DNA of 64,000 nt, taken from positions 2,542,001 to 2,606,000 of the forward strand of contig NC_060023.1 in the NCBI RefSeq assembly GCF_021134715.1, in the 5' to 3' direction. Below the pieces are notes generated by a model. It made no database searches and was not told the origin of the DNA. It worked only from the letters and a program-made list of their open reading frames with translations. Position numbers and translations under genes: made by a program. Source of the DNA: Daphnia pulex. Its lineage: Eukaryota; Arthropoda; Branchiopoda; Diplostraca; Daphniidae. This document shows positions 12,719-50,608 of the stretch, one piece after another (positions within the stretch are counted from its first letter, which is position 1; every line of letters begins with the position of its first letter).

Positions 12719-13770
12719 TATATCAAAATTCCTATTTTAACAAGTGTACATCAGGACAAAACGATTAACTAAAAATATAAATTGTTAAAAATGTTCCTTA
12801 TAAGTATAGCCCCGTAGCACATTTACAAACCATTAAATTTGTGGAGACGATGTGAAGTTGTCCGGACAGCGGATCGAGACTCTCCCGAGGCTGAACTAGT
12901 TAAAACATTTTTTTTAAAGCTAACCCGTTCAGTTAATTGAATTTCTAAAAATTTCCATCTAGTTTAATGGGTGTGATTTTTCACACGGATTTACAATTTT
13001 GGTTTGCCGTCTGAATTACGCTAAATTGTTACTCTTTAAAAGTCGACCCTCTACCAGATTTCATTTCTTAAAATAACCACTATTGTATATCAAAATTATT
13101 ATCAAAATTCATATTTTTACAAGTGTACATCAGGACAAAACGATTAACTAAAAATATAAATTGTTAAAAATGTTCCTTATAAGTATAGCCCCGTAGCACA
13201 TTTACAAACCATTAAATTTGTGGAGACGATGTGAAGTTGTCCGGAAAGCGGATCGAGACTCTCCCGAGGCTGAACTAGTTAAAACATTTTTTTTAAAGCT
13301 AACCCGTTCAGTTAATTGAATTTCTAAAAATTTCCATCTAGATTAATGGGTGTGATTTTTCACACGGATTTACAATTTTGGTTTGCCGTCTGAATTACGC
13401 TAAATTGTTACTCTTTAAAAGTCGACCCTCTACCAGATTTCATTTCTTAAAATAACCACTATTGTATATCAAAATTATTATCAAAATTCATATTTTTACA
13501 AGTGTACATCAGGACAAAACGATTAACTAAAAATATAAATTGTTAAAAATGTTCCTTATAAGTATAGCCCCGTAGCACATTTACAAACCATTAAATTTGT
13601 GGAGACGATGTGAAGTTGTCCGGACAGCGGATCGAGACTCTCCCGAGGCTGAACTAGATATAACATTTTTTTTTAAGCTAACCCGTCCAGTTAATTGCAT
13701 TTATAAAAATTTCCATCTAATTTAGTGGGTGTGATTTTTCATACGGATTTACAATTTTGTCTGCCATCTG
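12719..13770. repeat. Tandem repeat, 379-bp unit, about 2.8 copies
   Basis: The landmark CAAGTGTACATCAGGACAAA occurs at 12741, 13120 and 13499, exactly 379 bp apart, and the whole unit (including GTGGAGACGATGTGAAGTTG and CTCTACCAGATTTCATTTC) repeats with few changes. Only one, more diverged, unit is present at the matching place in the second duplication copy (40739-41100). The repeats sit at the left edge of segmental copy 1. Confidence 0.92.
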
Positions 13771-14749
13771 AACCAGATCGGATTGTTGATGTTTTTTGGA
13801 ATGTTCGATTTTTTTCGGATTTCCGCTAGATGCCGTCAAATTACCTTAGCCTGTAATGGCGACTGTTGTTGTTGTGAAAATTGCCCGTTCTCGTTTTTTT
13901 GTGTTTTCATAGGTAACTGTGATACCAGTGATACCACGGTGATACAATGTACATATTATTATTTCGCCTTAAAAATTAGATTCCATTGGCATGTAGAAGG
14001 TTGCCGAGCATGGGAAAGCGTTACATTTCTTATGATTTTTCTGTTGCAAAACGGTGCATGCACAACTACAATGGAGCTGGGTGTCAAAGTACAAGCTATT
14101 CACCGGCCTTTTAACACGACTAGTATGATTCCAGCTACCGATCGCGCCGTATTTCACCGATGCCCAGTAGCAGTAGCGTTACAATCAAGCATTTTACGAC
14201 TGATTGCTGTAGTGACGTTGGCACGTTGTTCATCAGTTCAAGGCAAGTGGCTACCACTACCCAAGTCATCTCATCAAGCACTGATGCCTTACTCACGTCT
14301 GATCCTTCGATGTGGCAGACTTTGTTCTCAGTTCTCAACTTGGTGTCATCTGTAAATTAAATTCACATAAGTTTGAAGTGCATCAAAACAAGACAAAAGT
14401 TTTTTAACTTGAAAGTGAAATCAAAGTAAAAGATGAAACGCTTAAAAATGCACCAAAATTCCCCTAACATTGCTGGAGAGCAGCCTTGTCTATTATCTGA
14501 AACCAAGTCTGCAACGTGAACTGTACTCGGCTGTTTCCTATTTTGTTTTTTATGTTTTTTATGATGTAGTTAAACATAAACATCTCACCTCTAACTGTCC
14601 AGTTCAGAATTCAGGAGGCATAATAACAGACCATTCAAACAGGTAAAAGGCAGTGCTAAAAAAAATTATGTAGCCTCCTTTTTTAAAAACACGTTTTCTG
14701 CTTAATTGGGTTTGCTAATCAAAACACTTTTTGTTGGATAATGAATGTT

Positions 14750-15118
14750 TCAAAGAAGAGAAATATAAGAAAGGAACAGACTTCTTAATTAGAGCCATGT
14801 AACTTGATCTTTCTGATGCCATATTCCCTGCTAATTGGGTGATTGCTTTGATTAAAGTAAAAAGGTGAGTTAATTTATTTTATCTGTCTAAGATTTTTTA
14901 TTGTTATCTGCCAAATGTATTTTCTTTTTCAGATTTGTAGAGGCCGAAGAAGAATGTAACCCATCTTTAAATCTTGATCCAACCTTATTTGTGAAAGCGT
15001 ATTGTCGTCGCGGCATAGCCCGATCCGCGATCCCATAAAAGTTGCAACAAGTACTTAATGACTTTGAGAAAGTATGAAGTATCGAGCCACATAACAAAGC
15101 TCTGCGCTGCAAGAATTT
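14750..15118 (+). pseudogene. TPR co-chaperone pseudogene (RPAP3/SPAG1-like), copy 1
   Basis: Two exon remnants (about 14750-14864 and 14933-15118) separated by an intron that keeps GTGAGT and TTTTTCAG. Translation gives a TPR pair: KEEKYKKGTDFLIRAM, stop, LDLSDAIFPANW...IKVK, then FVEAEEECNPSLNLDP, VKAYCRRGIARSAIP, stop, KLQQVLNDFEKV, stop, SIEPHNKAL. The pattern 'A..A...DP...KA+.RRG.AR...........DFEKV..IEP.NK' is that of TPR proteins such as RPAP3 and SPAG1. Three in-frame stops make it non-functional. The intron is retained, so it is not a processed copy. The same lesions occur in the duplicate at 42078-42446. Confidence 0.75.
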
Positions 15119-16618
15119 AAACGTCCCTCAAAACTCGAGAGTCGAGAGTAAGGATTTTTCAAATTCGCGATTTTGTCTAAATTCTGGTTTTTGCTAAAAA
15201 AAAACAGGCCATTTCGTTTGGACCCTAAATTTTACGAAGAATTCTGGACCCTTATCAAATTTGATTTCAGTTACTAGTTGGAAGAGATATCGCTTACTTC
15301 CGGTGTAGTTCCGGTACAAGAAATTGATTATCGAATGTGTGACACTGACACTAGATGGTGAGACCGGTAAGATGTCTTGTCTTGTCATGGCGTCATGCGA
15401 AAAATGTCGAAAATTAAGTTTGCTTTTGTGCCGGACGTTATTTTGTTTTTCGGGAGAAATTTAGCCTCAAAATGATATGTATTGTAAGTTAATCTGTAAC
15501 TATATAGTCTAACCACCATGTTTTACTTACACCCATCTCAATATCCTACACTACGTGTGCAATAACTAAACTGTTGTCTCACACAGGTCCAGGTTAAACC
15601 ATAGTCTATGGTTTTACATATGGATTAACTTTATCCTGGGCATTCAACCTCAAGTTGCTGAATATTTCTTATTAAACTTCATCTTTATATCCTGAAACTT
15701 GCTTGCTACTGGTAAGAAAAAATTTTATTTTATTTCTCTTCACACCAAGTTATTTGTTCTTTCACTTCTTTGTAAGCAGTGATCGAGTAGTGAAATTCTA
15801 TCCTAGCTGCCATTCTCTGTTTCAACCTCCCCGTAGGAAGCACACAACAAACTTCCCATGGCAGATAAAGGTAAATGTGTACTACTTTGTTAGTTATTGC
15901 TGAAACATAATTGAAAGCATTTGCTTTTATAGTTAATTTTCAGCAAAGAAGTTATAATAATCATGCTGCCTTATATTTAAGTTTTACGTGGATTTGATAG
16001 AACTTGTCATCTTAACGTAATAATTTTTAACAATCTTTTGATTTGTTGTAATAGATAATTTGCCTCTCAGAAAAAATGCGAGGTATCTGGTCGTCCATCT
16101 AAGGAAAATTATCAGGCATTGACGACACGTCCAACGCGGATCATCGTCTATTATTATTGGTATTGTTATGATTGAACCCTTTGCTTCCCTTTTGTTAGCT
16201 GTGTTCGATCGATTAACCCATAAGGCTGAATTTGTCGCACCTGCCAGAGACTGTCTTTAATATTTTAATTCTTTATATTCTTGAATGTAACACATTTTAA
16301 TCAAATCCAATGATTTTCTAGATACGTCATTTTCGAGCTCATTTTCTCAGCTGCAAAAATCGTCTTTTTATCTGCTATTCTCTTGCTGTGAACGTTCGTT
16401 GGCGTAACTAAACGTAAGTTCCTTTACAAGTTCCTTACAGTTGAGTTAAATACATGTACTGTATTTTTATCGATCCTTTAATTTTTTGTCTCCGATGTAG
16501 AGTTCGTGAACAAAAGGAGTGGAACAACCGAACAGGAAAGGACTTGGCGGCGCGATGATCGAAAACCATCAACCCATCTCACGTGGATCATCTACTTTTG
16601 GTATTGTTTTTTATGTTA

Positions 16619-16965
16619 GTTAACCCGTTGGCTGCCACGCCTTTGTTCTCCCTTGTGTTAGCTCCTTAGCACGGGCCCGCGCTGTTCGGTCTCGTGGTTT
16701 TCATGCCGCGGGGTCGGAAAGTCGCACCAGCCCAGCAAAATTCGCCGTAAGGCGCCTGTTAGGCAATGCACCATAGGGACTTCCCCCTTGTCGATACGGT
16801 GATGGATTCTAGAGGTTGTGCATTCCATCTTCTCCTGTCACCGTGTCAGCCCGGACTTGTCAGCAATGGCAAGTCCCACCTTGGTCATGGATCCTTCAGA
16901 CATGGCGCGTAGAGTAGTAGAAGAACAACCTACGGGTTGTATGGCGTGGCAGCCAACGGGTTAAC
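16619..16965. mobile_element. MITE, PIF/Harbinger-like, 347 bp (copy 1)
   Basis: A perfect 23-bp terminal inverted repeat, GTTAACCCGTTGGCTGCCAC plus GCC at the left end and its exact complement at the right end, flanked by the 3-bp direct repeat TTA (16616-16618 and 16966-16968). TTA/TAA target duplications are typical of PIF/Harbinger elements. There is no transposase gene inside, so the element is non-autonomous. The interior is GC-richer than its surroundings. It is present at the same site in block A copy 2, so it was inserted before the segmental duplication. Confidence 0.82.
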
Positions 16966-18534
16966 TTAAGTGTATGTTTGTATGTATGTATTTGTGTTGT
17001 AAAAAGAGGAGGAATTGTGGGTGGAGGTGGGACAATAAAAGCAATTCCAAACTAATTTAATATACATTCAATTTATTTATCATTACTTACAATAATCGCC
17101 GCAAAATCGAATTCAATCAGACAAATGTGAATTTCAATACTGTTAATATTAGTTTGAAATAATTGTACTATTTATGCAGAAAAAAGATATAACATGCTAG
17201 ATATATTAGACAGTGTACCCAAGACCAGAAAATCTGTTCAACTGCAAAAACAAATTTCAAACAACAAACATTTTCCTTATACTAATGATGCTGCAAACAT
17301 TAAACCCCTTTTTAAAACCCATTTTTTTTTTAAATTTAATTTTATTCAACCTAGTCAGCTTTTCAGTCCACAACAGCCAATACATTTCAGGTAAACACCA
17401 CAGAATACATGCAGCAGCTCCCCTTGACATCACACCGGCACTACACGCTGCATGCAACAGTTCCATTGGACATCACACCAGCACCACAGACTGCATGCAA
17501 CAGCTAACACCACTATTCAGCTGGCTGCAACAAAATCAAAGCCTGTTCTAATCTCGAAACCCTGTAATAAGTGGATAAAAGTTACATTTTAATGAGGCAT
17601 TTATACCAGATAGTACAAAGCATTATTAGCAGATGAGAACTAAATGAGATTGCATTGCCATTTAGTGGCATGTTGAGATAGAATAACTTAAAAGAAAAAG
17701 CCAAAGGAAATTCCATCACAAATCTTAATTTGGTGAAATTAAATGTTAAACCTTAACAGATCCAACATCTTCAATTATTAATTGAAGGCAAACCACAGCT
17801 CGCGACAAGCAGAATTTTCGAAAAATCACACTGCCTTATCTTGGGAAGATCTAAGCATCTAGTCAAAATTCTCTTAGCTATCCTCTACCCCTCTAAATAT
17901 TTGGCGTTCACCTAAGATTTCACATTAACTGGCACCTAAATAATAAACTTCGGTTTTTACATTTTAATTGATTTACAAAGAAAAAACACGAAGTTGAAAT
18001 ACATTCTACAAACCGGACGATCCATTTCACCTGCGAAATGTGCGAACTGTCAGTTGCTGTCGACTCTCATCGAATGCCAGCAGCCATCTTGAAAGTAACG
18101 TACAACATTGCCATTTACAGTTTTGCATAAAACGTTCGCATCTGGCATCTCTGCCAGCCTGCAAAGCATAGACAAAGCGGCAAAAGTCCGACTGCGAAGT
18201 GCGAACTGTGAATACAAAATGTTTAGCTTAACGACTAATTTTTTTAAAGTGGTTAAAACAAAATTGTATGTGGAATCTTGAATAAAGAAAAAGCCGTACC
18301 AGATCCGAAAGGAAGGAGACTGCATTAATAGTTTATTACATCCTTCGTTTGCGAACAAGAAGACTCAATGCCCTAGTTTCGTGATGAACTGCGAAGACTA
18401 AACTGTAATTTGAGAAGATAAGAGATTCCCAGAAAAAAAAACGCACTGATAAATAAATCAAACGCTTCTTTACGTCCACTCGATGAAATTGAAAACTTTC
18501 GAAATGCAAACACACTTCAAAGAAGTCAGCAAGT

Positions 18535-18542
18535 CTATAAAA
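18535..18542 (+). promoter_or_regulatory. Possible TATA box of the 18717 gene
   Basis: TATAAAAA about 180 bp upstream of the ATG. In the duplicate (about 46073) a 3-base deletion changes it to TATAAACA, one of the few promoter-side differences between copies. The assignment is tentative because no initiator is obvious. Confidence 0.3.
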
Positions 18543-18716
18543 ATCAAGTGTTGTCGAGTCTGGGCTGCGCCAGACATTGAAAACGATGAAACATTTTGAG
18601 ATCAACTTAGTATCGTGTAAGCGTGACGATTGCAGCAACTGCTCGCTGCACCCTTGTTCCGTTTGATCGTAGCATTTCTTAATTTAACAAAGACAGAAGT
18701 GTCGTAATTTAGCGTC

Positions 18717-20897
18717 ATGGCGACTTGCAACATCTCAATGAAAAGTCTTGTCCTATTCGCAGCGCAATTATTGGCGACTGTTTGTGGTCAAGATTCTCCT
18801 TCTTCCTGGACCAAACTGCAAATTTCGCCCAACGAACTTTGTTCTATGCCGTTCGGTAGTTTTCGCGTCAACATTTACGAGCACGACGAAAATAGCAAGT
18901 TGAGTACACTTCCCGCCCGTTACAAGTATTTCTACACTCCGATCGCCATGCTGGATCACACAAGCGCCACCAGTTCCTTCAACAATGTCACAAAACAGCC
19001 GGAAATCCGTTTCCGTATTGAAATGTGGAACGATAAGGTCGAAAGTGAAGTGGTTAAATATCTGGGCAAAGTCATCGGTCAACCAGTTCACGATCACCAG
19101 GTACAAGTTATTCCACTGGAGAAAGTAGTTCTGGTCAACACGATACCTTCAACTGCTTTCTCCCTCGGCAATAATTGGCTTCCCTATCAGCTGCACAAAT
19201 TCCTTCAATTTTCTCTGTCGTGTTTTACGCAAAACGATTGCGATCAACTGGCGCTCGACATGCGCTCTAACCCGGAACAGTTCGACCATTTAAAACTTTT
19301 GTTTAGCTTAACTTCACAGGCGTCACAAACAAAGGAAACCACTATTCGCATCGACAATGTCGTTTCGGGACAAATGGTCAGCAATCTCTTGCAACGATTT
19401 GGCCAAACAGACGAGATTCTACTAACGACTAACGATGAGAAGCGACTATTGACAGAAACAACAACCAACATCCTCGTAGAAACGTTCGACGAATCGGACG
19501 TTGTTTCTCCAAATTCGGAATCGCAGATCTACAACATGTTAAGGAACTTGCTTTTCTCTAATAAGACGGTCGTCAAAGAGCAGAGCGACAAGAAATGGGA
19601 CACGGTTTTCTGGAATGAGGAAAATTACCGACCGGACAAGGCAGCAAAATCATTAAACGAAGTCTACAAGAAGTTGGACGTGGAATCAAAGAAGAAACTG
19701 TCGGAACTGTATAAAAATATCAAAAAGATGGACGGCCAAGAAAATGTTTTGTTCGATATTTTTTCAGCGAAGGTACCGGTGACAACAGATTTTGCCAAAC
19801 ACGGATCTACTTCCAAGGACGATATTGATAAATTTTACCAAATGAGTAAAGGCCATGTTGAATGGGATGGAGATAAATTCGTTCCCAAACCGTTAGCTCT
19901 CAGTAAAATTAATCTTAGACAATTGCGTGAAAGGCATTTGTTAAAAGATCGTAAAGTGATCGTTCGTTACTCGATCGCTGTCTTGTCCATCCCCATTAAT
20001 TTTATACAATACCGTGGATTGACTGTCACTGACGAATGGCGAAATTTGAAGGACGAGTTAAAAGGTATTTTGCTGCTATTATATTACGCGTAACGTAAAA
20101 TTTCAAATTTCCGACGACTTCTTTTTTTGAAAGAAACAAGGACCACTCTTTCGAATTTGAAAAAGGACTTCAATGGTAGGAACAATGGACTTTTCCTGAT
20201 TTCTAAATTTTACTGATAAATATTACTGGACAGAGAGAACAAATGCCATCGAGGATATTGGTAGGATCCCAATGTCCTGCGCTGATCTCCGTCAGATTGG
20301 ACATAAAAAAAATGGACTCTTTTCGATTATGGGGAAAAAAATGATGGAAACTGTCCACTGCAATTTTTCGAAGCAATCTAACGAGGAAGGTATTGCTAGA
20401 AAACATTTATAGATAAATTAAAGCTGCTTAAATCGGCATGTGTGTACACAATTATAGGTTTTCAGAAATGGATTGGTTACGTTGACGTCAAATCTACTCC
20501 CGTTTACTTTCATGCGCAGAAGACTTCAAGTTACGCAAGAATCAACACCGCAATCCCGTTTGAAGAAGCAAGGATCAATGTGGGGAATGCCATGAACCTT
20601 CCGACAGGAATATTCGTAGCTCCAAGACCGGGGAAATATTACTTTGGATATTCGGGAATTAGTGAAAGCAATGAGGGACGAGTATTGTTACAAATGAAGA
20701 CTGAAACAGAAGATTGGTTCACAATAGGACAGGGGTTCAGTACAACTAGTTATGAAACCTTTTCGCTTCAGTCTACTTTGCAGCTTCTTAAAGGTGATCA
20801 AATAAGGATGTTCCTATTGCGCGGATCTGTTCACGATAATGCAGCCCATTACACTAACTTCGTTGGAGGGCTTGTCGAGGAAAATGTCTTTGAGTAG
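18717..20897 (+). CDS. Secreted protein: large unknown N-domain + neurexin-IV-like piece + C1q (copy 1)
   Basis: Three exons (18717-20064, 20234-20389, 20458-20897) join in phase 1 throughout to 647 residues. Reading straight through the first donor (AAAG|GTATTT) would give a 458-residue protein ending LLLLYYA, which is probably not the real product. Residues 1-24 are a signal peptide (MKSLVLFAAQLLATVCG). Residues 25-449 form a region I do not recognise: conserved-looking YKYFYTPI, EIRFRIEMWNDKVE, LGNNWLPYQLHKFLQFSLSC, few cysteines, and a Lys-rich helical stretch near 310-340. Exon 2 encodes RIPMSCADLRQIGHKKNGLF, homologous to MPTSCQDLWRMGHTLSGLYS of the 10523 gene. Exon 3 begins GFQKWIGY and is a full C1q domain (GIFVAPRPGKYYFGYSG, ending HYTNFVGGLVEE). 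It is likely secreted and multimeric through C1q. Function unknown. Confidence 0.8.
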
Positions 20898-21515
20898 AAT
20901 CATTTTAGTTGATTTTACTTAAAGATTTCTTATACTACGATGCTGAAAACTTTTGCATGCATTTATTCTGTTCGAAATTCTTAACATATCAAGTCGATTT
21001 TAAATTAGAAGCTATCCTATGAATCACTTTAACTCCTTAATATGTGCACTACCGATGCATTACCTATGCAATAAAGAGAAGGTCACTTACTTTGACTTGA
21101 TCATTGCGTCAGTTTGAGCAGTTTCATGGGCTGGAAATATCCATTTCATACGCTGTCACGTTTCTGCAAGTCACCTACAACCGATTTGTAAGGATTGGAA
21201 TGCTGGCCTCCTCTACGACACATTCAATCGTAAAACCAGGGAAAAAGTTCAATTTAGGTTAACGAATCGCCTCAACGGCGGTAACAGATATATTGACTAA
21301 GACACAGTACAGCTATAAAATCGTAACGACATACCTGTTGGCTTTTAGCTGAATTTACCTTTGAATTTAAATAACGTCTAACATTTAGAACGGACAACTT
21401 AAACTATTGAATAGGATTTTTTGTGCGTTTTTAAGACAGTTAATCCCGATTGTCGATCAGATCATTGATATGTGATTAGCACCCAACTTACAAGCCGTTA
21501 CTACTTTTCAGCTGA
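20898..21515. other. Spacer between convergent C1q chimera and sideroflexin genes
   Basis: The two genes point toward each other. The spacer holds the C1q gene's 3' region and nothing else recognisable. Confidence 0.5.
21070..21075 (+). terminator. Polyadenylation signal AATAAA, 18717 gene
   Basis: AATAAA about 170 nt after the stop codon; the duplicate has it at 48647-48652. It is the first canonical signal after the C1q exon. Confidence 0.5.
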
Positions 21516-22916
21516 TCACAAGCCCTTATTGAAATAGACTTTAGATATTGAGCCTTCGCCAACAGTCTTTTTGAGTTTTTCGTATTGTTCCGGCTCGAAA
21601 CGGGCCAGCGTTGAGACGTCCAAAGAGCTAAAAAAGAAAAATGAGCCACAATGATTTAGTACTCACGGGCGTGCATAAATCACAAAAATGTGTACCATCT
21701 TTGAGGGAAGAGGGCGCAAGCGGCGGGAGTCATGAAGGTGAGACTAGATGGGAAAATAAAATCAATAAGATTAATAACCCTTTATGAGAATGGATTCAAT
21801 TCGTAATTTATGTACATTGCTCCGCAGGCGACGATCTGAAAAGGCGCATGTAAGAATTTAATTCGTTGCATCCAAGAATAGCTCTCCAATTTTTCCATCA
21901 CGAGGGGCAGTAAAGCTGTGCAAATATTTCATTCAACGGATTAGATTCGAAATTTATTTGCAATCATTCATCGACTCAACTCATTCCAGGAGCTGCCATA
22001 GCGATTCGTGAGATTACAACTTGCGTGATTCCTTTAGCAGCGGCCAGCTAAAATGTTGTTTAGTAAAAAAATGTAATTCACGTAGGTTTCATAAAAGATA
22101 AGGCATGGAAAATTTACGCGAGATTCGGTGACAGCGTTTCCATTTTCGTCGTAAACGACGATGCCGTTAATTAATTCCGACTGACGCATCAGTGGAATAT
22201 TTACGCAATTGGCAGCGGCTACGGCAGCAAATGGAACATAGCGCTGTAGAAGACTTCCGGCTCTCTTTTCCAAGAAGGTCTTGAGACCAAGGGCGGTAAC
22301 CAACGCGGATGTTGTCGCCGAAACGTATGCCACGCCCAACTGGGTCGACGAGACTTCTGACTTGGCGTTACGGTTGGTGTAATTCACTAGAGCGTTGAAG
22401 GATTGGTTGACCCACTGCCAAAACACCACAGCAGGGACAGTCCTGGATTATTATGTATGCCAAAGTGAATCATAAATTCTGCATAGTCTATAAGGCAAGG
22501 ACAATTTTTTTTTTTTTTTTAAACCTGTAAAACTGCAACATGAAGCCAGTGATGAGCATACCCCCTGGAACTTGGAAAGACATTCTACCGCAGAAATTCT
22601 GAAGTTCACCAGAGTCAGGGTGAAAAGCAGATTCGTAGAGCTTCCTTGCATACCAAACTTGTTCAGTTGTAGTTCCTGGTGGTTCTCGATGATTCCTGCA
22701 AAATCAAAAAAGTTATTCATCAATAAAAGAGACAAAGTGTTTAATTTTGAGATGTAAAATTAAGTACTTGTATTTCTCGACCAAGGTTTTGGCTTCATAG
22801 AGTTGCTCGCTTGAAACTACACAAGATCTTGGATCAGTAACCCAAAAGAAATGCTTCAGCCTTCCTGAAAATGTGCTCTGATCCCACTTGGGTTGGCTAA
22901 AATCAATTCGCTGCAT
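21516..22916 (-). CDS. Sfxn: Sideroflexin (mitochondrial serine/amino-acid carrier), copy 1
   Basis: Seven exons on the minus strand (22916-22768, 22695-22525, 22442-22118, 22047-21981, 21915-21816, 21743-21696, 21627-21516) join in frame to 323 residues, the usual length of the family. Hallmarks are [78 protein letters not shown], the hydrophobic helices around [13 protein letters not shown] and [16 protein letters not shown], and the C-terminal VYFNKGL. Sideroflexins 1-3 sit in the inner mitochondrial membrane and carry serine for one-carbon metabolism. An upstream in-frame extension exists, but MQRIDFSQ is the family-typical start. In this copy the homology to copy 2 stops about 110 bp upstream of the ATG, so the native promoter seems to have been replaced by block B sequence. 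Confidence 0.93.
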
Positions 22917-23035
22917 CTTTTTGTCCTGTAATGAATCTCCAATCGGCAGCTCACAAGTTTTAAAAAACCTCGACAAAATCGAACTGGCGAATAATTTCGA
23001 CTGAACGTCTCTGCATAAACTAATCAACCTTATAT

Positions 23036-24588: not shown

Positions 24589-24634
24589 TTATAGTTTCTT
24601 CTTTCATAAAGAAAATTTCTCTTTTCTTTTCTTT

Positions 24635-24639
<5 letters not shown>

Positions 24640-24690
<51 letters not shown>
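24640..24690. repeat. (CT)n microsatellite
   Basis: About 50 bp of uninterrupted CT dinucleotide in an AT-rich spacer, preceded by a CTTTT-rich run. Open frames across it on the minus strand (Arg/Glu repeats) are artefacts of the repeat. Confidence 0.97.
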
Positions 24691-24695
<5 letters not shown>

Positions 24696-25050
24696 TTCCA
24701 TTTTGAGAAATTCACAGCAAGAAATGATTTGATATAAAAAGAAAGAAACCGCCAAACCGGGCAGACACACCAGACACACCATGAATTGGACGGCCACAAC
24801 ACCAGAGAGGTTAATGATAAAACCCTTTGCCTTATATTTTATGACTATACCCAAACGTTAGGAAACGATTCAAGTCACTAAGGTTAAAAGATCCGTTCAC
24901 GATTTTATTTTTTTCTTTCAGACTTTCGTTCTTCCAGAAAGATTTATTTATATCCCTCTCGCCCCCTTGCTATATCAAGTCCGTTTTCTTTTTTGACTTT
25001 TCTCTTCAGAGGCCTCGATAAAACCAAAAGTAATTTTCCATTTTTCTTAC

Positions 25051-32840: not shown

Positions 32841-32842
32841 AG

Positions 32843-33013
32843 GCAGCTGAATATCATGATCAGAATTGTGAAATTGTGAAAAGAAACAGGCTCCAATCCC
32901 TTCTCCATGACGTTGCTATTGGGAATTTGGTTAAGCTCAAACGGCTAGTGAAAATTGAGGGGTTAAACGTCTACAGCACACGCGATTATTTTATGAAAAA
33001 TGGACGACAATAA
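32843..33013 (+). pseudogene. FEM1-like gene fragment
   Basis: In frame with 32876 the sequence reads AAEYHDQNCEIVKRNRLQSL, then LHDVAIGNLVKLKRLVKIEG, then YFMKNGRQ and a stop at 33011-33013. This aligns with the start of the 30383 protein (KKGRIISQLLDAVSNGNMKD, LKRLTKVEKLQV, FLLKNGQLLK). Only the first 50 or so residues remain and no start codon is in frame nearby, so this is a truncated paralogue. Confidence 0.7.
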
Positions 33014-38186: not shown

Positions 38187-40735
38187 TTACATAAGAAAAG
38201 TGTTATTTTCTTTTTCCTAAATCCCAGTAGATGAACAGAAAAAAAACATCTAACATGTCATTGAATTCAACCGTAATACAGTAGTACGGGGCCCACAAAA
38301 AGCCATCTCTAATATATAAGGGGAACATCTAATTCTAAAAGCGAAAACATATCAGATGATTTTTGTCAACGCGGATATGTAGATTTAAAGTTACCGGTGA
38401 CTACTGTGATGTCCGTGTTCATGTAATAAAGTGACGCATGAAGATACTCATAGTTTATCTGGATGAAGCTAGCATATCAGGACTAAGCAGCTTCAATACG
38501 GTATCTTTCTCCGTCCAAAATAAACCTTTGAAAACCATATAGAACTGGTTCGGGCCTCTTTCGTTTAAGAGCATCCGTCTCGGGTTGTGGATCTCTTCGC
38601 CGCGATCATCTTCTGATTCTATATGATATCTGTACGCCATTCAGATAACGCTCTTCACAACAAAGTGCCCTGTATGATGCCATCAAATTATTAAATTAAT
38701 TGTCTTCAACTTAACAAGAAACACTTACCTCAAAGTAAAGGATTAGGTAGGCCTACTTGGCTCGAAGAGTAAAGTGCATTTCTTTTTTGCTGAGATAAAA
38801 ACAACACATTTTTTGTCATTTGCTGTTCTTTCTAAACTTGGAACCAGAGGAATATCTATTCAAATAAACAGTTAAACACAATAAAATCAACATTTAGTAT
38901 TCAGGTGTCATAATAAATCTCTGGATTGATTGTTGCAGCCAAATAAAGTTAATATTATTTGCATACAATTGCAAGACCTGTGCTGTGAATATAGTATTAG
39001 CTACAATATTCATGGGATTTAAAATTTTGTTTACCAAATATGAAAAAAAAAGAAGCAAGAAAGATTTCAGTAGGTAAAGTGAACATTGATAAGGAATAAA
39101 GGAACATTAATACTTTTAGACATACTTTTATTCCTTTCGACTTTAGAGCTGTTGACTTCCACACCCTGTTTTGAAATGGTGTTGAATGATGAATCACCCA
39201 AAGCTTTTAGACTAATGAGAGAAAGGATTATAGTTAAGAGAACGTTTATTATATTTTACAGTTAATTACCTATTAATTACCGGATTTATGTTAAGAGAAT
39301 GTTTACTATATTTACTTAGTTATGGTCTTATGGACTTCAATTCTTCGTCGAACTCGAACGGCCATTAGCGTCTGCTGTTTACAAAACAACTCGCCTTTTC
39401 AATAATCCAATGGAGTAGTTGGACATCCTGCGTTGTGCATTCTCCGCAAATGCGAAAATCTCATTTGTGTCCAACTCGGTCTGTGTCGCCTACAGCGTCT
39501 TATGGGAAAACCAACTTTTCCTCGGTAAAAAAATTGTTTTCTTATCTATGACTCTGATTTTCCCCCCTTTTCTTCCTAACAGTTAATACTTTATTCATTT
39601 CTCTATTACCTAATTTTTATTTCTATCCCCAATTCCATCTGGTTAATTTTTAATTAATTTTTGTTTGTGACTGGTTTTTTTGTTCGTCTCCTGTAGCAGA
39701 CGTTTCTAGACGTTTCTAGACAGAATCGACCACGCTACGAACGAAATTCTTCTGCTACAGGAGACAACAAAAAAACCAGTCACAAACAAAAATTAATTAA
39801 AAATTAACCAGATGGAATTGGGGATAGAAATAAAAATTAGGTAATAGAGAAATGAATAAAGTATTCACTGTTAGGAAGAAAAGGGGGGAAATCAAAGTTA
39901 TAGGTAAGAAAACAACTGTTTTAACGGGAAGAAGTTGGTTTTTCCATAAGACGCTGTAGGCGACACAGATCAAGTTGGACACAAATGAGATTTTCGCATT
40001 TGCGGAGAATGCGCAACGCAGGATGTCCAACTACTCCATATTGATGAAAATCAAGTAATAAATACCAAAAAAAGCAATTTACATTTTTTTTAAATATTTT
40101 TTAAAGAAAAATGTACATTTTATTCGAGTATTAACGAGTTTATATTGAAACATTGAAATACATATCATCTCGGTTATATATTGAACAGAGTCGCGTAGGA
40201 GAGTTGAATAAGGCGTTGATATCATCAAGCGGCGTGCCATGGGACCCGCGTTCGACTCTCCTTGTGTGCCATACTGTTTCTGTAAAAAAAAAAATATCAA
40301 AGCAACGACTCCCAAAAAACGAAATTTCTGATAATCACACCAGAGCTCTCTCAATTGGAGATTAATACCTAGTCGCGTGTCGTTATCTTCAATCTGATTC
40401 TATTAAATAGGAGGTAATGCTGCAAGGCTGAAGCTGTACTGATTGTGGTAAAATATGTCCATTGGATGTAACAATCTTACACTTTGACACCCAGGTGGGA
40501 AAGCTCGGATAGAGACTATCAATCAAGTTAATTTTTTGTTACTTTACATGTTAATAGTATTCAATGAGGAAATCTTTTTTAATTGGTAATTTTTTAATGT
40601 TAACTTTTCGTACAAATCTGCCTGCCTTCATGAAGGCCATTCTCGTTCAAGATTTTCTTTCTTCTATAGAGAATTATTAATAAGTGAAAGGAAATATGGC
40701 ATGTTTTATAATAATCAAAAAAATATTATGCAAAT
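38187..40735. repeat. Segmental duplication block B, copy 2
   Basis: The match to 23036-24588, interrupted by a roughly 360-bp stretch (38335-38695) and a 626-bp foldback element (39412-40037) absent from copy 1. It is followed immediately by block A copy 2, whereas copy 1 of block B follows block A. The tRNA-like segment is at 40190-40262. Confidence 0.9.
39412..40037. mobile_element. 626-bp foldback element (long terminal inverted repeats)
   Basis: Starts GGAGTAGTTGGACATCC and ends with its exact complement. The two arms of about 280-290 bp are near-perfect inverted copies around a short centre near 39700-39750 (TCTAGACGTTTCTAGACAG). It carries no transposase gene. Block B copy 1 shows the empty site (CCAATATTGATG), and the filled site reads CCAAT-element-ATATTGATG, consistent with a 2-bp AT duplication or a TGGAG...CTCCA element without one. 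The insertion is therefore younger than the duplication. Confidence 0.93.
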
Positions 40736-42077
40736 GCCCTTTAAAAGTCGACCCTCTACCAGATTTCATTTCTTAAAATAACCACTATTGTATATCAAAA
40801 TGATGATAAAAATTCATATTTTTACAAGCGTACAGCTGTAAAAAACGATTAACTAAAAATGTTAATAGTTCAAAATGTTCCTTTCAAGTGAAGCCCCGTA
40901 GCACATTTACAAACCATTAAATTTGTGGAGACGATGTGAAGTTGTCCGGACAGCGGATCGAGACTCTCCCGAGGCTGAACCAGTTAAAACATTTTTTTTT
41001 AAAGCTAACCCGTCCAGTTAATTGCATTTATAAAAATTTCCATCTAATTTAGTAGGTGTGATTTTTCATACGGATTTACAATTTTTGTCTGCCATCTGAA
41101 CCAGATCGGATTGTTGATGTTTTTTGGAATGTTCGATTTTTTTCGGTTTTCCGCTAGATGCCGTCAAATTACCTTAGCCTGTAATGGCGACTGTTGTTGT
41201 TGTGAAAATTGCCCGTTCTCGTTTTTTTGTGTTTTCATAGGTAACTGTGACAACAGTGATACCACGGTGATACAATGTACATATTATTATTTCGCCTTAA
41301 AAATTAGATTCCATTGGAATGTAGAAGGTTGCCGAGCATGGGAAAGCGTTACATTTCTTATGATTTTTCTGTTGCAAAACGGTGCATGCACAACTACAAT
41401 GGAGCTGGGTGTCAAAGTACAAGCTATTCACCGGCCTTTTAACACGACTAGTATGATTCCAGCTACCGATCGCGCCGTATTTCACCGATGCCCAGTAGCA
41501 GTAGCGTTACAATCAAGCATTTTACGACTGATTGCTGTAGTGACGTTGGCACTTTGTTCATCAGTTCAAGGCAAGTGGCTACCACTACCCAAGTCATCTC
41601 ATCAAGCACTGATGCCTTACTCACGTCTGATCCTTCTATGTGGCAGACTTTGTTCTCAGTTCTCAACTTGGTGTCATCTGTAAATTACATTCACATAAGT
41701 TTGAAGTGCATCAAAACAAGACAAAAGTTTTTTAACTTGAAAGTGAAATCAAAGTAAAAGCTGAAATGCTTAATAATGCACCAAAATTCCCCTAACATTG
41801 CTGGAGAGCAGCCTTGTCTATTATCTGAAACCAAGTCTGCAACGTTAACTGTACTCGGCTGTTTCCTATTTTGTTTTTTATGTTTTTTATGATGTAGTTA
41901 AACATAAACATCTCACCTCTAACTGTCCAGTTCAGAATTAAGGAGGCCTAATAACAGACCATTCAAACAGGTAAAAGGCAGTGCTAAAAAAAATTATGTA
42001 GCCTCCTTTTTTAAAAACACGTTTTCTGCTTAATTGGGTTTGCTAATCAAAAAACTTTTTGTAGGATAATGAATGTT

Positions 42078-42446
42078 TCAAAGAAGAGAAATATAAGAAA
42101 GGAACAGACTTCTTAATTAGAGCCATGTAACTTGATCTTTCTGATGCCATATTCCCTGCTAATTGGTTGATTGCTTTGATTAAAGTAAAAAGGTGAGTTA
42201 ATTTATTTTATCTGTCTAAGATTTTTTATTGTTATCTGCCAAATGTATTTTCTTTTTCAGATTTGTAGAGGCCGAAGAAGAATGTAACCCATCTTTAAAT
42301 CTTGATCCAACCTTATTTGTGAAAGCGTATTGTCGTCGCGGCATAGCCCGATCCGCGATCCCATAAAAGTTGCAACAAGTACTTAATGACTTTGAGAAAG
42401 TATGAAGTATCGAGCCACATAACAAAGCTCTGCGCTGCAAGAATTT
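42078..42446 (+). pseudogene. TPR co-chaperone pseudogene, copy 2
   Basis: Duplicate of the pseudogene at 14750-15118, in block A copy 2. The same three in-frame stops (after LIRAM, after ARSAIP and after DFEKV) and the same retained intron are present, so the gene was dead before the segmental duplication. Confidence 0.75.
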
Positions 42447-43946
42447 AAACGTCCCTCAAAACTCGAGAGTCGAGAGTAAGGATTTTTCAAATTCGCGATT
42501 TTGTCTAAATTCTGGTTTTTGCTAAAAAAAAACAGGCCATTTCGTTTGGACCCTAAATTTTACGAAGAATTCTGGACCCTTATCAAATTTGATTTCAGTT
42601 ACTAGTTGGAAGAGATATCGCTTACTTCCGGTGTAGTTCCGGTACAAGAAATTGATTATCGAATGTGTGACACTGACACTAGATGGTGAGACCGGTAAGA
42701 TGTCTTGTCTTGTCATGGCGTCATGCGAAAAATGTCGAAAATTAAGTTTGCTTTTGTGCCGGACGTTATTTTGTTTTTCGGGAGAAATTAAGCCTCAAAA
42801 TGATATGTAAGTTAATCTGTAACTATATAGTCTAACCACCATGTTTTACCTACACCCATCTCAATATCCTACACTATGTGTGCAATAACTTAACTGTTGT
42901 CTCATACAGGTCCAGGTTAAACCATAGTCTATGGTATGGTTTTACATATGGATTAACTTTATCCTGGGCATTCAACCTCAAGTTGCTGAATATTTCTTAT
43001 TAAACTTCATCTTTATATCCTGAAACTTGCTTGCTACTGGTAAGAAAAAATTTTATTTTATTTCTCTTCACACCAAGTTATTTGTTCTTTCACTTCTTTG
43101 TAAGCAGTGATCGAGTAGTGAAATTCTATCCTGGCTGCCATTCTCTGTTTCAACCTCCCCGTAGGAAGCACACAACAAACTTCCCATGGCAGATAAAGGT
43201 AAATGTGTACTACTTTGTTAGTTATTGCTGAAACATAATTGAAAGCATTTGCTTTTATAGTTAATTTTCAGCAAAGAAGTTATAATAATCATGCTGCCTT
43301 ATATTTAAGTTTTACGTCGATTTGATAGAACTTGTCATCTTAATGTAATAATTTTTAACAATCTTTTGATTTGTTGTAATAGATAATTTGCCTCTCAGAA
43401 AAAATGCGAGGTATCTGGTCGTCCATCTAAGGAAAATTATCAGGCATTGACGACACGTCCAACGCGGATCATCGTCTATTATTATTGGTATTGTTATTAT
43501 TGAACCCTTTGCTTCCCTTTTGTTAGCTGTGTTTGATCGATTAACCCATAAGGCTGAATTTGTCGCACCTGCCAGAGACTGTCTTTAATATTTTAATTCT
43601 TTATATTCTTGAATGTAACACATTTTAATCAAATCCAATGATTTTCTAGATACGTCATTTTCGAGCTCATTTTCTCAGCTGCAAAAATCGTCTTTTTATC
43701 TGCTATTCTCTTGCTGTGGACGTTCGTTGGCGTAACTAAACGTAAGTTCCTTTACAAGTTCCTTACAGTTGAGTTAAATACATGTACTGTATTTTTATCG
43801 ATCCTTTAATTTTTTGTCTCCGATCTAGAGTTCGGGAACAAAAGGAGTGGAACAACCGAACAGGAAAGGACTTGGCGGCGCGATGATCGAAAACCATCAA
43901 CCCATCTCACGTGGATCATCTAATTTTGGTATTGTTTTTTATGTTA

Positions 43947-44290
43947 GTTAACCCGTTGGCTGCCACGCCTTTGTTCTCCCTTGTGTTAGCTCCTTAGCAC
44001 GGGCCCGCGCTGTTCGGTCTCGTGGTTTTCATGCCGCGGGGTCGGAGAGTCGCACCAGCCCAAAATTCGCCGTAAGGCGCCTGTTAGGCAATGCACCATA
44101 GGGACTTCCCCCTTGTCGATACGGTGATGGATTCTAGAGGTTGTGCATTCCATGTTCTCCTGTCACCGTGTCAGCCCGGACTTGTCAGCAATGGCAAGTC
44201 CCACCTTGGTCATGGATCCTTCAGACATGGCGCGTAGAGTAGTAGAAGAACAATCTACGGGTTGTATGGCGTGGCAGCCAACGGGTTAAC
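43947..44290. mobile_element. MITE, PIF/Harbinger-like (copy 2)
   Basis: Same element and same insertion site as 16619-16965, with the same 23-bp terminal inverted repeats and flanking TTA. It is 3 bp shorter inside. It arose with the block duplication, not by a new transposition. Confidence 0.82.
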
Positions 44291-46249
44291 TTAAGTGTAT
44301 GTTTGTATGTATGTATTTGTGTTGTAAAAAGAGGAGGAATTGTGGGTGGAGGTGGGACAATAAAAGCAATTCCAAACTAATTTAATATACATTCAATTTA
44401 TTTATCATTACTTACAATAATCGCCGCAAAATCGAATTCAATCAGACAAATGTAAATTTCAATACTATTAATATTAGTTTGAAATAATTTTACTATTTAT
44501 GCAGAAAAAATATATAACATGCTAGATATATTAAACAGTGTACCCAAGACCAGAAAATCTGTTCAACTGCAAAAACAAATTTCAAACAACAAACATTCTC
44601 CTTATACTAATGATGCTGCAAACATTAAACCCCTTTTTAAAACCCATTTTTTTTTACAATTTAATTTTATTCAACCTAGTCAGCTTTTCAATACTTCAAG
44701 AAATTTAAAACAGCATTTCCAGAGAGTGGCCTGTTGTTCTCAACCATGATATTAACATTTAGGTTTTTTTTGGCCAGAAAACAATTTAAACCAGCAGTTA
44801 TCAATTGAATCATTCCTTATCTTGTAAGATCAGGTTGTATCAATCATCATACTATATGGATGATGCACTCAGGCATGGACACAGATGACGAACAACTCCA
44901 CAACAGCCAACACATTTCAGGTTAACACCACAGGATGCATGCAACAGCTCTCCTTGACATCACACCGGCACTACACGCTGCATGCAACAGTTCCATTTGA
45001 CATCACACCAGCACCGAAGACTGCATGTAACAGCTAACACCACCATTCACCAGCTGGCTGCAACAAAATCAAAGCCTGTTCAAATCTCGAAACCCTGTAA
45101 TAAGTGGATAAAAGTTACATTTTAATGAGGCATTTATACCAGATAGTACAAAGCATTATTAGCAGATGAGAACTAAATGAGATTGCATTGCCATTTAGTG
45201 GCATGTTGAGATAGAATAACTTAAAAGAAAAAGCCAAAGGAAATTCTATCACAAGCCTTAATTCATCAGTGTAATTAAACATTAAACTTAACAGAGCCAA
45301 CAGACTTCAATTGTTAATTGAAGGCAAACCACAGCTCGCGACAAGCAGAATTTTGGAAAAATCACACTGCCTTATCTTGGAAAGATCTAGGCATCTAGCC
45401 AAAATTCTATTAGCTATCTTCTACCCCTCTAAATATTTGGCGTTCACCTTAAGATTTTACATTAACTGGCACCAAAATAATAAACTTCGGTTTTACATTT
45501 TAATTGATTTACAAAGAAAAAACACGAAGTTGAAATACATTCTACAAACCGGACGATCCATTTCACCTGAGAACTGTCAGTTGCTGTCGACTCTCATCTC
45601 ATCGAAACGAATGCCAACAGCCGCAGCCATCTTGAAAGTAACGCACAGCATTGCCATTTTCAGTTTTGCATTTAAAAAGGTCCGCATCTGGCATCTCTGC
45701 AGTTGCAAAGAGCCAAAGCGGCAAAACTGAAAACCGCAATAGTCCGACTGCGAACTGTGAATACAAAATGTTTAGCTTAACGACTCATTTTTTAAAAGTG
45801 ATTAAAACAAAATTGTATGTGGAATCTTGAATAAAGAAAAAGCCGTACCAGATCCGAAAGGAAGGAGACTGCATTATTACATCCTTCGTTTGCGAACAAG
45901 AAGACTCAATGCCCTAGTTTCGTGATGAACTGCGAAGACTAAACTGTAATTTGAGAAGATAAAAAGGATTCCCGGAAAAAAAAAACGCGCTGATAGATAA
46001 ATCAAACGCTTCTTTACGTCCACTCGATGAAATTGAAAACTTTCAAAATGCAAACACAGAGAGGTCAGCAAGTCTATAAACAAGTGTTGTCGAGTCTGGG
46101 CTGCGCCATACATTAAAAACGATGCATTTTGAGATCAACTTAGTATCGTGTAAGCGTGACGAAGGCAGCAACTGCTCGCTGCACCCTTGTTCCGTTTGAT
46201 CGTACCATTTCTTAAGTTAACAAAGACAAAAGTGTCGTAATTTAGCGTC

Positions 46250-48440
46250 ATGGCGACTTGCAATATCTCAATGAAAAGTCTCGTCCTATTCGCAGCGCAA
46301 TTATTGGCGACTGTTTGTGGTCAAGAATCTCCTTCTTCCTGGGCCAAACTACAAATTTCGCCCAACGAACTTTGTTCTATGCCGTTCGGTAGTTTTCGCG
46401 TCAACATTTACGAGCACGCCGACAATAGCAAGTTGAGTACACTTCCCGCCCGTTACAAATATTTCTACACTCCGATCGCCCTGCTGGATCACACAAGCGC
46501 CACCAGTTCCTTCAACAACGTCACAAAACAACCGGAAATCCGATTCCGTATTGAAATGTGGAACGATAAGGTCGAAAGTGAAGTGGTTAAATATCTGGGC
46601 AAAGTCATCGGTCAACCAGTTCACGATCACCAGGTACAAGTTATTCCACTGGAGAAAGTAGTTCTGGTCAACACGATACCTTCAACTGCTTTCTCCCTCG
46701 GCAATAATTGGCTTCCCTATCAGCTGCACAAATTCCTTCAATTTTCTCTGTCGTGTTTTACGCAAAACGATTGCGATCAACTGGCGCTCGACATGCGCTC
46801 TAACCCGGAACAGTTCGACCATTTAAAACTTTTGTTTAGCTTAACTTCACAGGCGTCACAAACAAAGGAAACCACTATTCGCATCGACAGTGTCGTTTCG
46901 GGACAAATGGTCAGCAATCTCTTGCAACGATTTGGCCAAACAGACGAGATTCTACTAACGACTAACGATGAGAAGCGACTATTGACAGAAACAACAACCA
47001 ACATCCTCGTAGAAACGTTCGACGAATCGGACGTTGTTTCTCCAAATTCGGAATCGCAGATCTACAACATGTTAAGGAACTTGCTTTTCTCTAATAAGAC
47101 GGTCGTCAAAGAGCAGAGCGACAAGATGTGGGACACGGTTTTCTGGAATGAGGAAAATTACCGACCGGACAAGGCAGCAAAATCATTAAACGAAGTCTAC
47201 AAGAAGTTGGACGTGGAATCAAAGAAGAAAATGTCGGAATTGTATAAAAATATCAAAAAGATGGACGGCCAAGAAAATGTTTTGTTCGCTATTGTTTCAG
47301 CGAAGGTACCGGTGACAACAGATTTTGCCAAACACGGATCTACTTCCAAGGACGATATTGATAAATTTTATCAAATGAGTAAAGGCTATGTTGAATGGGA
47401 TGGAGATAAATTCGTTCCCAAACCGTTAGCTCTCAGTAAAATTAATCTTACACAATTGCGTGAAAGGCATTTGTTAAAAGATCGTAAAGTGATCGTTCGT
47501 TACTCGATCGCTGTCTTGTCCATCCCCATTAATTTTATACAATACCGTGGATTGACTGTCACTGACGAATGGCGAAATTTGAAGGACGAGTTAAAAGGTA
47601 TTTTGCTGCTATTATATTACGCGTAACGTAAAATTTCAAATTTCCGACGACTTCTTTTTTTGAAAGAAACAAGGACCACTCTTTCGAATTTGAAAAAGGA
47701 CTTGAATGGTAGGAACATTGGACTTTAAAAACTTTTTCCTGATTTCTAAATTTTACTGATAAATATTACTGGACAGAGAGAACAAATGCCATCGAGGATA
47801 TTGGTAGGATCCCAATGTCCTGCGCTGATCTCCGTCAAATTGGACATAAAAAAAATGGACTCTTTTCGATTATGGGGAAAAAAATGATGGAAACTGTCCA
47901 CTGCAATTTTTCGAAGCAATCTAACGAGGAAGGTATTGCTAGAAAACATTTATAGATAAATTAAAGCTGCTTAAATCGGCATGTGTGTACACAATTATAG
48001 GTTTTCAGAAATGGATTGGTTACGTTGACGTCAAATCTACTCCCGTTTACTTTCATGCGCAGAAGACTTCAAGTTACGCAAGAATCAACACCGCAATCCC
48101 GTTTGAAGAAGCAAGGATCAATGTGGGGAATGCCATGAACCTTCCGACAGGAATATTCGTAGCTCCAAGACCGGGGAAATATTACTTTGGATATTCGGGA
48201 ATCAGTGAAAGCAATGAGGCACGAGTATTGTTACAAATGAAGACTGAAACAGAAGATTGGTTCACAATAGGACAGGGGTTCAGTACAACTAGTTATGAAA
48301 CCTTTTCGCTTCAGTCTACTTTGCAGCTTCTTAAAGGTGATCAAATAAGACTATTCCTATTGGGCGGATCTATTCTCGATAATGCAGCCCATTACACTAA
48401 CTTCGTTGGAGGGCTTGTCGAGGAAAATGTCTTTGAGTAG
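46250..48440 (+). CDS. Secreted protein: large unknown N-domain + neurexin-IV-like piece + C1q (copy 2)
   Basis: Duplicate of the 18717 gene with identical exon structure (46250-47597, 47777-47932, 48001-48440) and 647 residues. Signal peptide, unrecognised N-terminal region, RIPMSCADLRQIGHKKNGLF exon and C1q exon are all intact. By eye there are about a dozen amino-acid changes in the N-terminal part (for example EHDENSK to EHADNSK, DKKWDT to DKMWDT, LFDIFSAK to LFAIVSAK) and about five in C1q, most of them clustered near its end (MFLLRGSVHD to LFLLGGSILD). The clustering in a C1q surface loop may reflect relaxed constraint or diversification. A poly(A) signal lies at 48647-48652. Function unknown. 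Confidence 0.8.
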
Positions 48441-49093
48441 AATCATTTTAGTTGATTTTACTTAAAGATTTCTTATACTACGATGCTGAAAACTTTTGCA
48501 TGCATTTCTGTTTGAAAATCTGTTTTCTTAAGATAAACTGCTTGTAAGATGAAATTCTTAACACCAAGTCGATTTGAAATTAGAAGCTATATCCTATGAA
48601 TCACTTTAACTCCTTTATATGTACACTACCGATGCATTACATATGCAATAAAGAGAAGGTCACATACTTTGACTTGATCATTGCGTCAGTTTGAGCAGTT
48701 TCATGGGCTGGAAATATCCATTTCATACGCTGTCACGTTTCTGCAAGTCACCTACAACCGATTTGTAAGGATTGGAATGCTGGCCTCCTCTACGACACAT
48801 TCAATTGTAAAGCCAGGGAAAAAGTCCAATTTAGGTTAACGAATCGCCTCAACGGCGGTAACATATATATTGACTAAGACACAGTACAGCTATAAAATCG
48901 TAACGACATACCTGTTGGCTTTTAGCTGAATTTAACCTTTGAATTTAAATAACGTCTAACATTTAGAACGGACAACTTAAACTATTGAATAGGATTTTTT
49001 GTGCGTTTTTAAGACAGTTAATCCCGATTGTCGATCAGATCATTGATATGTGATTAGCACCCAACTTACAAGCCGTTACTACTTTCCAGCTGA

Positions 49094-50492
49094 TCACAAG
49101 CCCTTATTGAAATAGACTTTAGAGATTGAGCCTTCGCCAACAGTCTTTTTGAGTTTTTCGTATTGTTCCGGCTCGAAACAGGCCAGCGTTGAGACGTCCA
49201 AAGAGCTAAAAAAGAAAAATGAGCCACAATGATTTAGTACTCACGGGCGTGCATAAATCACAAAAATGTGTACCATCTTTGAGGGAAGAGGGCGCAAGCG
49301 GCGGGAGTCATGAAGGTGAGACTAGATGGGAAAATAAAATCAATAAGATTAATAACCCTTTATGAGAATGGATTCAATTCGTAATTTATGTACATTGCTC
49401 CGCAGGCGACGATCTGAAAAGGCGCATGTAAGAATTTAATTCGTTGCATCCAAGAATAGCTCTCCAATTTTTCCATCACGAGGGGCAGTAAAGCTGTGCA
49501 AATATTTCATTCAACGGATTAGATTCGAAATTTATTTGCAATCATTCATCGACTCAACTCATTCCAGGAGCTGCCATAGCGATTCGTGAGATTACAACTT
49601 GCGTGATTCCTTTAGCAGCGGCCAGCTAAAATGTTGTTTAGTAAAAAAATGTAATTCACGTAGGTTTCATAAAAGATAAGGCATGGAAAATTTACGCGAG
49701 ATTCGGTGACAGCGTTTCCATTTTCGTCGTAAACGACGATGCCGTTAATTAATTCCGACTGACGCATCAGTGGAATATTTACGCAATTGGCAGCGGCTAC
49801 GGCAGCAAATGGAACATAGCGCTGTAGAAGACTTCCGGCTCTCTTTTCCAAGAAGGTCTTGAGACCAAGGGCGGTAACCAACGCGGATGTTGTCGCCGAA
49901 ACGTATGCCACGCCCAACTGGGTCGACGAGACTTCTGACTTGGCGTTACGGTTGGTGTAATTCACTAGAGCGTTGAAGGATTGGTTGACCCACTGCCAAA
50001 ACACCACAGCAGGGACAGTCCTGGATTATTATGTATGCCAAAGTGAATCATAAATTCTGCATAGTCTATAAGGCAAGGACAATTTTTTTTTTTTTTTAAC
50101 CTGTAAAACTGCAACATGAAGCCAGTGATGAGCATACCCCCTGGAACTTGGAAAGACATTCTACCGCAGAAATTCTGAAGTTCACCAGAGTCAGGGTGAA
50201 AAGCAGATTCGTAGAGTTTCCTTGCATACCAAACTTGTTCAGTTGTAGTTCCTGGTGGTTCTCGGTGATTCCTGCAAAATCAAAAAAGTTATTCATTAAT
50301 AAAAGAGACAAAGTGTTTAATTTTGAGATGTAAAATTAAGTACTTGTATTTCTCGACCAAGGTTTTGGCTTCATAGAGTTGCTCGCTTGAAACAACACAA
50401 GATCTTGGATCAGTAACCCAAAAGAAATGCTTCAGCCTTCCTGAAAATGTGCTCTGATCCCACTTGGGTTGGCTAAAATCAATTCGCTGCAT
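49094..50492 (-). CDS. Sfxn: Sideroflexin, copy 2
   Basis: Duplicate of the 21516-22916 gene with the same seven exons and 323 residues. Coding changes are almost all silent; I found one replacement, near the C-terminus (STLARFEPE in copy 1, STLACFEPE here). Hallmarks are as in copy 1 ([36 protein letters not shown]). This copy keeps longer upstream sequence (50493-50660 and beyond) that does not match block B, so it more likely has the original promoter and is the parental gene. The family acts in the inner mitochondrial membrane as a serine carrier. Confidence 0.93.
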
Positions 50493-50608
50493 CTTTTTGT
50501 CCTGTAATGAATCTCCGATCGGCAGCTCACAAGTTTTAAAAAACCTCGACAAAATCGAACTGGCGAATAATTTCGACTGAACGTCTCTGTACAAACTAAT
50601 CAACCCCC

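Follow-up and report, generated by a model that had tools for sequence, protein, structure and literature searches.

Duplications formed through a circular DNA intermediate have been described with joints that share no homology and that carry gains or losses of 1–27 bp (Chicote et al. 2020; PMC7450558). In that paper, non-homologous end joining (NHEJ) is favoured for closing of the circle, whilst NHEJ or microhomology-mediated break-induced replication/fork stalling and template switching (MMBIR/FoSTeS) is considered for its insertion. Duplications through extrachromosomal circular DNA (eccDNA) were treated by Takahashi and Innan (2020; PMC7188851), and cycles of templated insertions have been described from somatic cancer genomes (Li et al. 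2020; PMC7025897). Here we analyze a 64,000-nucleotide stretch of Daphnia pulex chromosome C7 (NC_060023.1, positions 2,542,001–2,606,000; hereafter the window), in which two blocks, A and B, each occur twice around a segment S, in the order A1-B1-S-B2-A2. We give an even chance to the reading that this is a tandem duplication of A with a B-S-B insert at its junction, produced by template switching in the germline.

The window was compared with itself by BLAST and its parts were searched against the whole assembly (133.19 Mb in 13 contigs; C1, C3, C5 and so on denote its chromosomes). The four main self-matches had E = 0.0, which excludes chance, and all four copies of A and B lay on the + strand. 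From self-BLAST and the joint sequences, block A occupies 13413–23029 (A1, 9,617 bp) and 40739–50605 (A2, 9,867 bp), the two copies differing by substitutions at 203 of 9,569 aligned sites (2.1%); it contains an open reading frame (ORF) with a C1q domain, part of a sideroflexin gene and a high-copy repeat. Block B occupies 23035–24588 (B1, 1,554 bp) and 38188–40735 (B2, 2,548 bp), which differ by substitutions at 20 of 1,552 aligned sites (1.3%, in an alignment that begins 2 bases outside B on the left side). Segment S (24589–38187, 13,599 bp, + strand as presented) was delimited between the B copies by self-comparison and genome searches. The ~17 kb between the A copies is scrambled and similar to other chromosomes. 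The first-pass annotation had placed A and B twice in a single orientation, as A1-B1 and then B2-A2, and our self-comparison confirmed this, with no copy in the opposite orientation. It had also called the A1/B1 junction abrupt with little extra sequence, and indeed we found only a 5-bp filler, TTATA, at 23030–23034. The B2|A2 joint carries a 3-bp filler, GCC, at 40736–40738, and comparison of the joint sequences showed no shared homology across either joint. TTATA is the same five bases found directly right of the B1 end, with a frequency of 0.0018 per position; as many looks were taken, we give this identity little weight.

An apparent circular permutation of this kind can be resolved by asking which of its joints are old, with paralogues from within the genome as a guide. 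There are six joints in this structure, and paralogous sequence informs on three of them. To do so the two sides of each joint were aligned separately to paralogous stretches, and each score was set against 1000 shuffles. At 7.7197–7.7252 Mb on C5 the order is S end, B edges, S start (S_end-B'-S_start), within an immunoglobulin (Ig)-domain gene that is contiguous there. In the window this gene order is broken, its 3' and 5' parts sitting at opposite ends of S, both on the - strand. The 5' part (24589–25856), with two Ig-domain exons, lies at the S start, where 24662–25856 is 90% identical to C5:7724031–7725228. The 3' part (36946–38187) lies at the S end and is 89–91% identical to C5:7719684–7719854 and 7721563–7722453.

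These C5 sequences continue through both joints between B and S. For S|B2, C5:7722519–7722736 aligned to 38071–38301, spanning 38187/38188; a 14-bp gap falls in the A-rich run there (38177–38190), and each side alone exceeded all 1000 shuffles (74 against a maximum of 39, and 124 against a maximum of 44). For B1|S, C5:7723957–7724119 aligned gap-free through 24588/24589 (S side 66 against a maximum of 48; B side 41 against a maximum of 40). At the left flank|A1 joint, the reverse complement of a stretch at C7:2.436 Mb (L045) aligned across 13412/13413, with the two sides scoring 63 against a maximum of 41 and 31 against a maximum of 26; the array unit at that place holds a 70–76% inverted relative that crosses the linker|A1 joint. 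The controls gave shuffle-level scores: 936 of 1000 shuffles scored at least as high as the A1 end against the C5 stretches and 677 of 1000 as the A2 start, whilst for the B2 end against the C7:2.436 Mb paralogue of the A1 left edge the count was 553 of 1000. Given the C5 order and the shuffle-level scores of the A ends, B1|S and S|B2 would be old joints and A1|B1 and B2|A2 new ones. On these alignments the left flank|A1, B1|S and S|B2 joints look original, the joints at A1|B1 and B2|A2 look new, and A2|R, where R lies to the right of A2, would be original by parsimony. With these joint ages the window is parsed as L-A-(B-S-B)-A-R, that is, as A in tandem with an insert placed exactly at the junction.

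This parsing bears directly on the origin proposed in the first-pass annotation, namely that A1-B1 gave rise to an excised circle of A and B, which was opened where A meets B and inserted again as B2-A2. That something was permuted still holds, and a circle or dimer is plausible; what fails is the composition of the circle, since the neighbors of B on C5 are S sequences. The block order alone is compatible with an A+B circle, and the divergences of A and B are broadly alike (2.1% and 1.3%). However, such a circle requires A1|B1 to be an original joint, whereas on C5 the neighbors of B are the S ends and the ends of A have no match there, and it would also have to reopen exactly at the A|B joint. 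We regard this origin as highly improbable. As the 5' and 3' parts of the Ig gene, contiguous on C5, lie at the two ends of S, a permuted circle, if there was one, would have held S and B, not A and B. The same annotation had argued that a tandem duplication with a spacer cannot yield two B copies, which overlooks B-S-B as one insert with repeated ends.

Nor do we favor an assembly artefact at A1|B1 or B2|A2, which we consider very improbable. The region is indeed rich in repeats, and part of A recurs in near-identical tandem copies 104–131 kb left of the window. Against this, the sequence is gap-free (zero N in the window), the copies differ by 1–7%, by a miniature inverted-repeat transposable element (MITE)-like insertion and by a deletion, and the sequences that meet at the two new joints, with their short fillers, are not homologous, whereas misjoins typically occur where a repeat is shared.

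We compared the window with the described systems. The circular-intermediate cases (PMC7450558) resemble it in their permuted block order, small scars and lack of joint homology, but they are non-tandem pairs for which a single reintegration without a rolling circle was argued; the window would contain more than one lap, with the target duplicated on both sides. The eccDNA duplications of PMC7188851 also insert a permuted copied fragment elsewhere, but its authors, to be conservative, leave out cases with the same block on both sides (its Fig. 4A), which is the B-S-B pattern seen here. A circle opened at one point would leave each block once in the derivative, and this is not so in the window, where B stands at both ends of S. 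The order is swapped between the two loci, with S_end-B'-S_start on C5 and B-S_start...S_end-B in the window; C5 is a relative of the donor, not the donor. Templated-insertion cycles (PMC7025897) are like the window in that a copied string returns and a host segment is re-replicated, giving A-insert-A; here a same-orientation host segment, A1 and A2, flanks B-S-B on both sides. Unlike those somatic cycles, the window comes from an animal genome assembly, its copies are 1–7% diverged and its insert has repeated B ends. If confirmed, it would be the germline equivalent of a structure known from tumour catalogues. Among the Daphnia papers listed on circular DNA, on gene conversion and tandem duplicates, and on segmental duplication or template switching (10 of 266 for the last), no title or abstract opening describes this locus.

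Template switching is the most economical single mechanism, and we take the window as plausibly, if not provably, the scar of a DNA-copying accident rather than of an excised A+B circle. The source would have resembled the C5 locus at 7.72 Mb, with the order S_end-B'-S_start. During replication in the germline a broken fork would leave A at its right end (23029) and copy an S-B template, in the form of a circle or head-to-tail dimer or by two visits to one locus. This template would be read circularly from the left edge of B through a whole lap and beyond (13.6 kb of S and, before the deletion in B1, ~1.9 kb of B), and copying would then re-enter the chromosome 9.6 kb upstream, at 13413, so that A is copied again. 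B would stand at both ends of the insert because the template was read for more than one lap or visited twice, and the double occurrence of A and B calls for no coincidence, both being overlaps between exit and return points. Gene conversion, the loss of 363 bp from B1 and the gain of the MITE-like element in B2 would have followed later. That this was one event, with a circle or dimer as template, by copying and not by cut-and-paste, and with A2|R original, is what we infer. The most specific form of the proposal, in which germline repair copied more than one lap of a ~15 kb circle carrying a scrambled gene fragment and returned 9.6 kb behind its exit, strikes us as doubtful. If the tandem duplication with its insert were confirmed, the overlap in the template would be evidence that a circle or dimer was read beyond a single lap. 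Structures of this kind can pass for swapped tandem duplicates or for assembly errors.

Several findings weigh against template switching from a single S-B template. The B side of the B1|S joint is weak alone, scoring one point above the shuffle maximum, and no paralogue of the A2|R joint was found in the genome. Between its matching edges C5 carries Ig ORFs, where B has an unrelated repeat of ~1.4 kb. The present C5 locus is not the exact source, and a derived copy, found nowhere else in the searches, must have served as template. C5 homology at the S start side stops near 25856, and the joint that would have closed the circle was not located. Lastly, S may have been put together from successive templates, or be a patchwork of older date, instead of coming from one circle.

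Two or more events could give the same product. An A-B-A arrangement might have taken up an S-B circle or dimer by homologous recombination at B, or, in an allelic version, an S-B circle might have inserted on each side of A, with unequal recombination then giving A-B-S-B-A. These routes reach the same final order by known types of recombination, and B1|S and S|B2 are original either way. They need two or three events, however, and the allelic version calls for two insertions, 9.6 kb apart, of a segment without any other near-identical copy found. We hold a multi-event origin to be possible, though we lean against it.

The copy number of S also bears on whether a longer tandem array of a C5-like segment was trimmed by deletions at both ends beside a duplicated A. 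S and B were searched piecewise across the genome; for three pieces the best 40 of 308, 40 of 107 and 40 of 461 candidates were scored, and for the others all candidates. Positions 25001–25699 were covered only by a query with the whole of S, which missed S itself and was not used for absence. Among the candidates scored there was no other near-identical copy of any long stretch of S or B, and the best long matches elsewhere were 76–91% identical. According to PMC7188851, tandem duplication with partial deletion gives a block-X-block order like B-S-B. A trimmed array nevertheless requires deletions on both sides as well as duplication of A; self-comparison (matches >150 bp) found S sequence neither to the left of B1 nor to the right of B2, and the piecewise search recovered no second near-identical S among the candidates scored. 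We judge it improbable.

The exact template was not found; relatives were found on C5 for the ends of S (89–91%) and at C8:4.905 Mb for 31380–32847 (89–91%). The latter stretch overlaps an ORF of 533 amino acids with ankyrin repeats (30377–31978, + strand), which from 31380 on is 89% identical to C8:4.905 Mb. It is followed by a relative of a multicopy sequence (33011–36951, + strand), with its best match at C8:9.81 Mb (83%) and others on C5, C12 and C11. This stretch contains no ORF of ≥120 amino acids and, by eye, appears to be a decayed relative of the ankyrin ORF. C5:7713519–7717200 belongs to the same multicopy family (73–80%) and adjoins the 3' side of the Ig gene, as in S. To judge from these matches S is a mosaic, C5-like at its ends and C8-like at 31380–32847 and 33011–36951.

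On C5, three of the five Ig-gene ORFs tested matched Ig families, and the other two gave either no match or sub-cut-off matches only. Two intronless copies, at C3:3.2248 Mb and C7:5.5363 Mb, match four stretches of the C5 gene and keep them in the order seen on C5. In both, the first three stretches abut without introns and the fourth follows after ~66 and 32 bp, compared to ~1.2–1.3 kb in C5. The copies are 88% alike over ~950 bp, and one C5 Ig ORF (L033:6862–7146) was not seen in either. They are likely retrocopies that record the exon order. Within the S end, ~67 bp of a transmembrane stretch present in C5 are absent at 38071/38072. Intron loss was considered and set aside, as by eye the C5 reading frame crosses the gap as a hydrophobic stretch, and a deletion is more likely.

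Block B2, identified by self-BLAST and by its C5 alignment, has 363 bp and 628 bp without counterpart in B1. The 363 bp do not look like an insertion into B2, as a relative on C1 aligns straight through them (38318–38947, 72%), and it is more likely, from this alignment, that B1 lost them between AATT repeats. The 628 bp are a palindromic MITE-like element (39411–40038, no strand assigned), with five further full-length copies, 98–99% identical, on C9, C3, C8, C4 and C1; this element is a gain of B2. The middle of B (~1.4 kb in B1) is unlike the C5 Ig stretch and belongs to a repeat, its longer pieces being 68–83% identical to places within S and on C1, C5 and C10. No full copy of B beyond B1 and B2 was found in the genome, only partial relatives (68–83% for pieces >100 bp).

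Two transposon readings of the insert were rejected. B as long terminal repeats (LTRs), with S as a retrotransposon interior, does not fit a C5 gene locus that continues through both B|S joints, nor the lack of any other full B copy in the genome. By eye, no flank duplication was seen between the A1 end and the A2 start. Helitrons have 5' TC and 3' CTRR ends. B1 starts with TACATAAG and B2 ends with ATGCAAAT, followed by GCC, and these ends do not fit (by eye, on the given strand).

A1 and A2 have diverged very unevenly. At the left edge (13413–13774) 20 of 362 sites differ (5.5%), and this falls to 41/3,583 (1.14%) over 13775–17365. A patch of high divergence follows at 17366–18700 (+ strand; 87/1,299, 6.7%), then 12/310 (3.9%) at 18701–19010, 41/3,946 (1.04%) at 19011–22960 and 2/69 (2.9%) at 22961–23029. 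The variance/mean ratio in 200-site windows was 6.3, with none of 2,000 shuffles exceeding 1.75; identical sites ran on for up to 1,036, compared to at most 513 in 2,000 shuffles. This pattern appears to be best explained by gene conversion from which the edges and one patch escaped, perhaps with a contribution from selection on coding regions. Later conversion has probably homogenised most of A and B. At 18.2–19.0 kb a paralogue at C7:2.411 Mb is about as near to A1 and to A2 as these are to each other, which suggests conversion involving all three.

The left edge of A1 is straddled by a tandem array (12721–13772, + strand, 2.8 copies of 379 bp), a feature absent from the first-pass annotation. 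Its unit contains the first ~360 bp of A plus a linker of ~19 bp, and A2 holds one partial unit. Further left, at C7:2,411,454–2,438,471 (104–131 kb left of the window), part of A has matches at five places. Four of these match 18363–20582 at 95% and are spaced 6.09 kb apart; the three of these four that were compared were identical over 2,360 aligned sites, which would make them either a very young array or an assembly effect.

Rfam scanning at gathering thresholds gave no match anywhere in the window. The match to the C7:2.41–2.44 Mb copies ends at 20582, within the C1q ORF, and a C8 match begins at 20574; the C1q gene may be a chimera. Both sideroflexin copies (22115–22904 and 49693–50480) match only positions 1–217 of the 319-position family, with matches to positions beyond 217 found only in a gene on C10, and both may be truncated. 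A dispersed repeat at ~16560–17184 in A1 is 83–93% identical to at least 38 places outside the window, at least 37 of these lying on other contigs. A further tandem duplication is found towards the left end of the window, where 2051–3804 and 3844–5595 are 83% identical over 1.8 kb.

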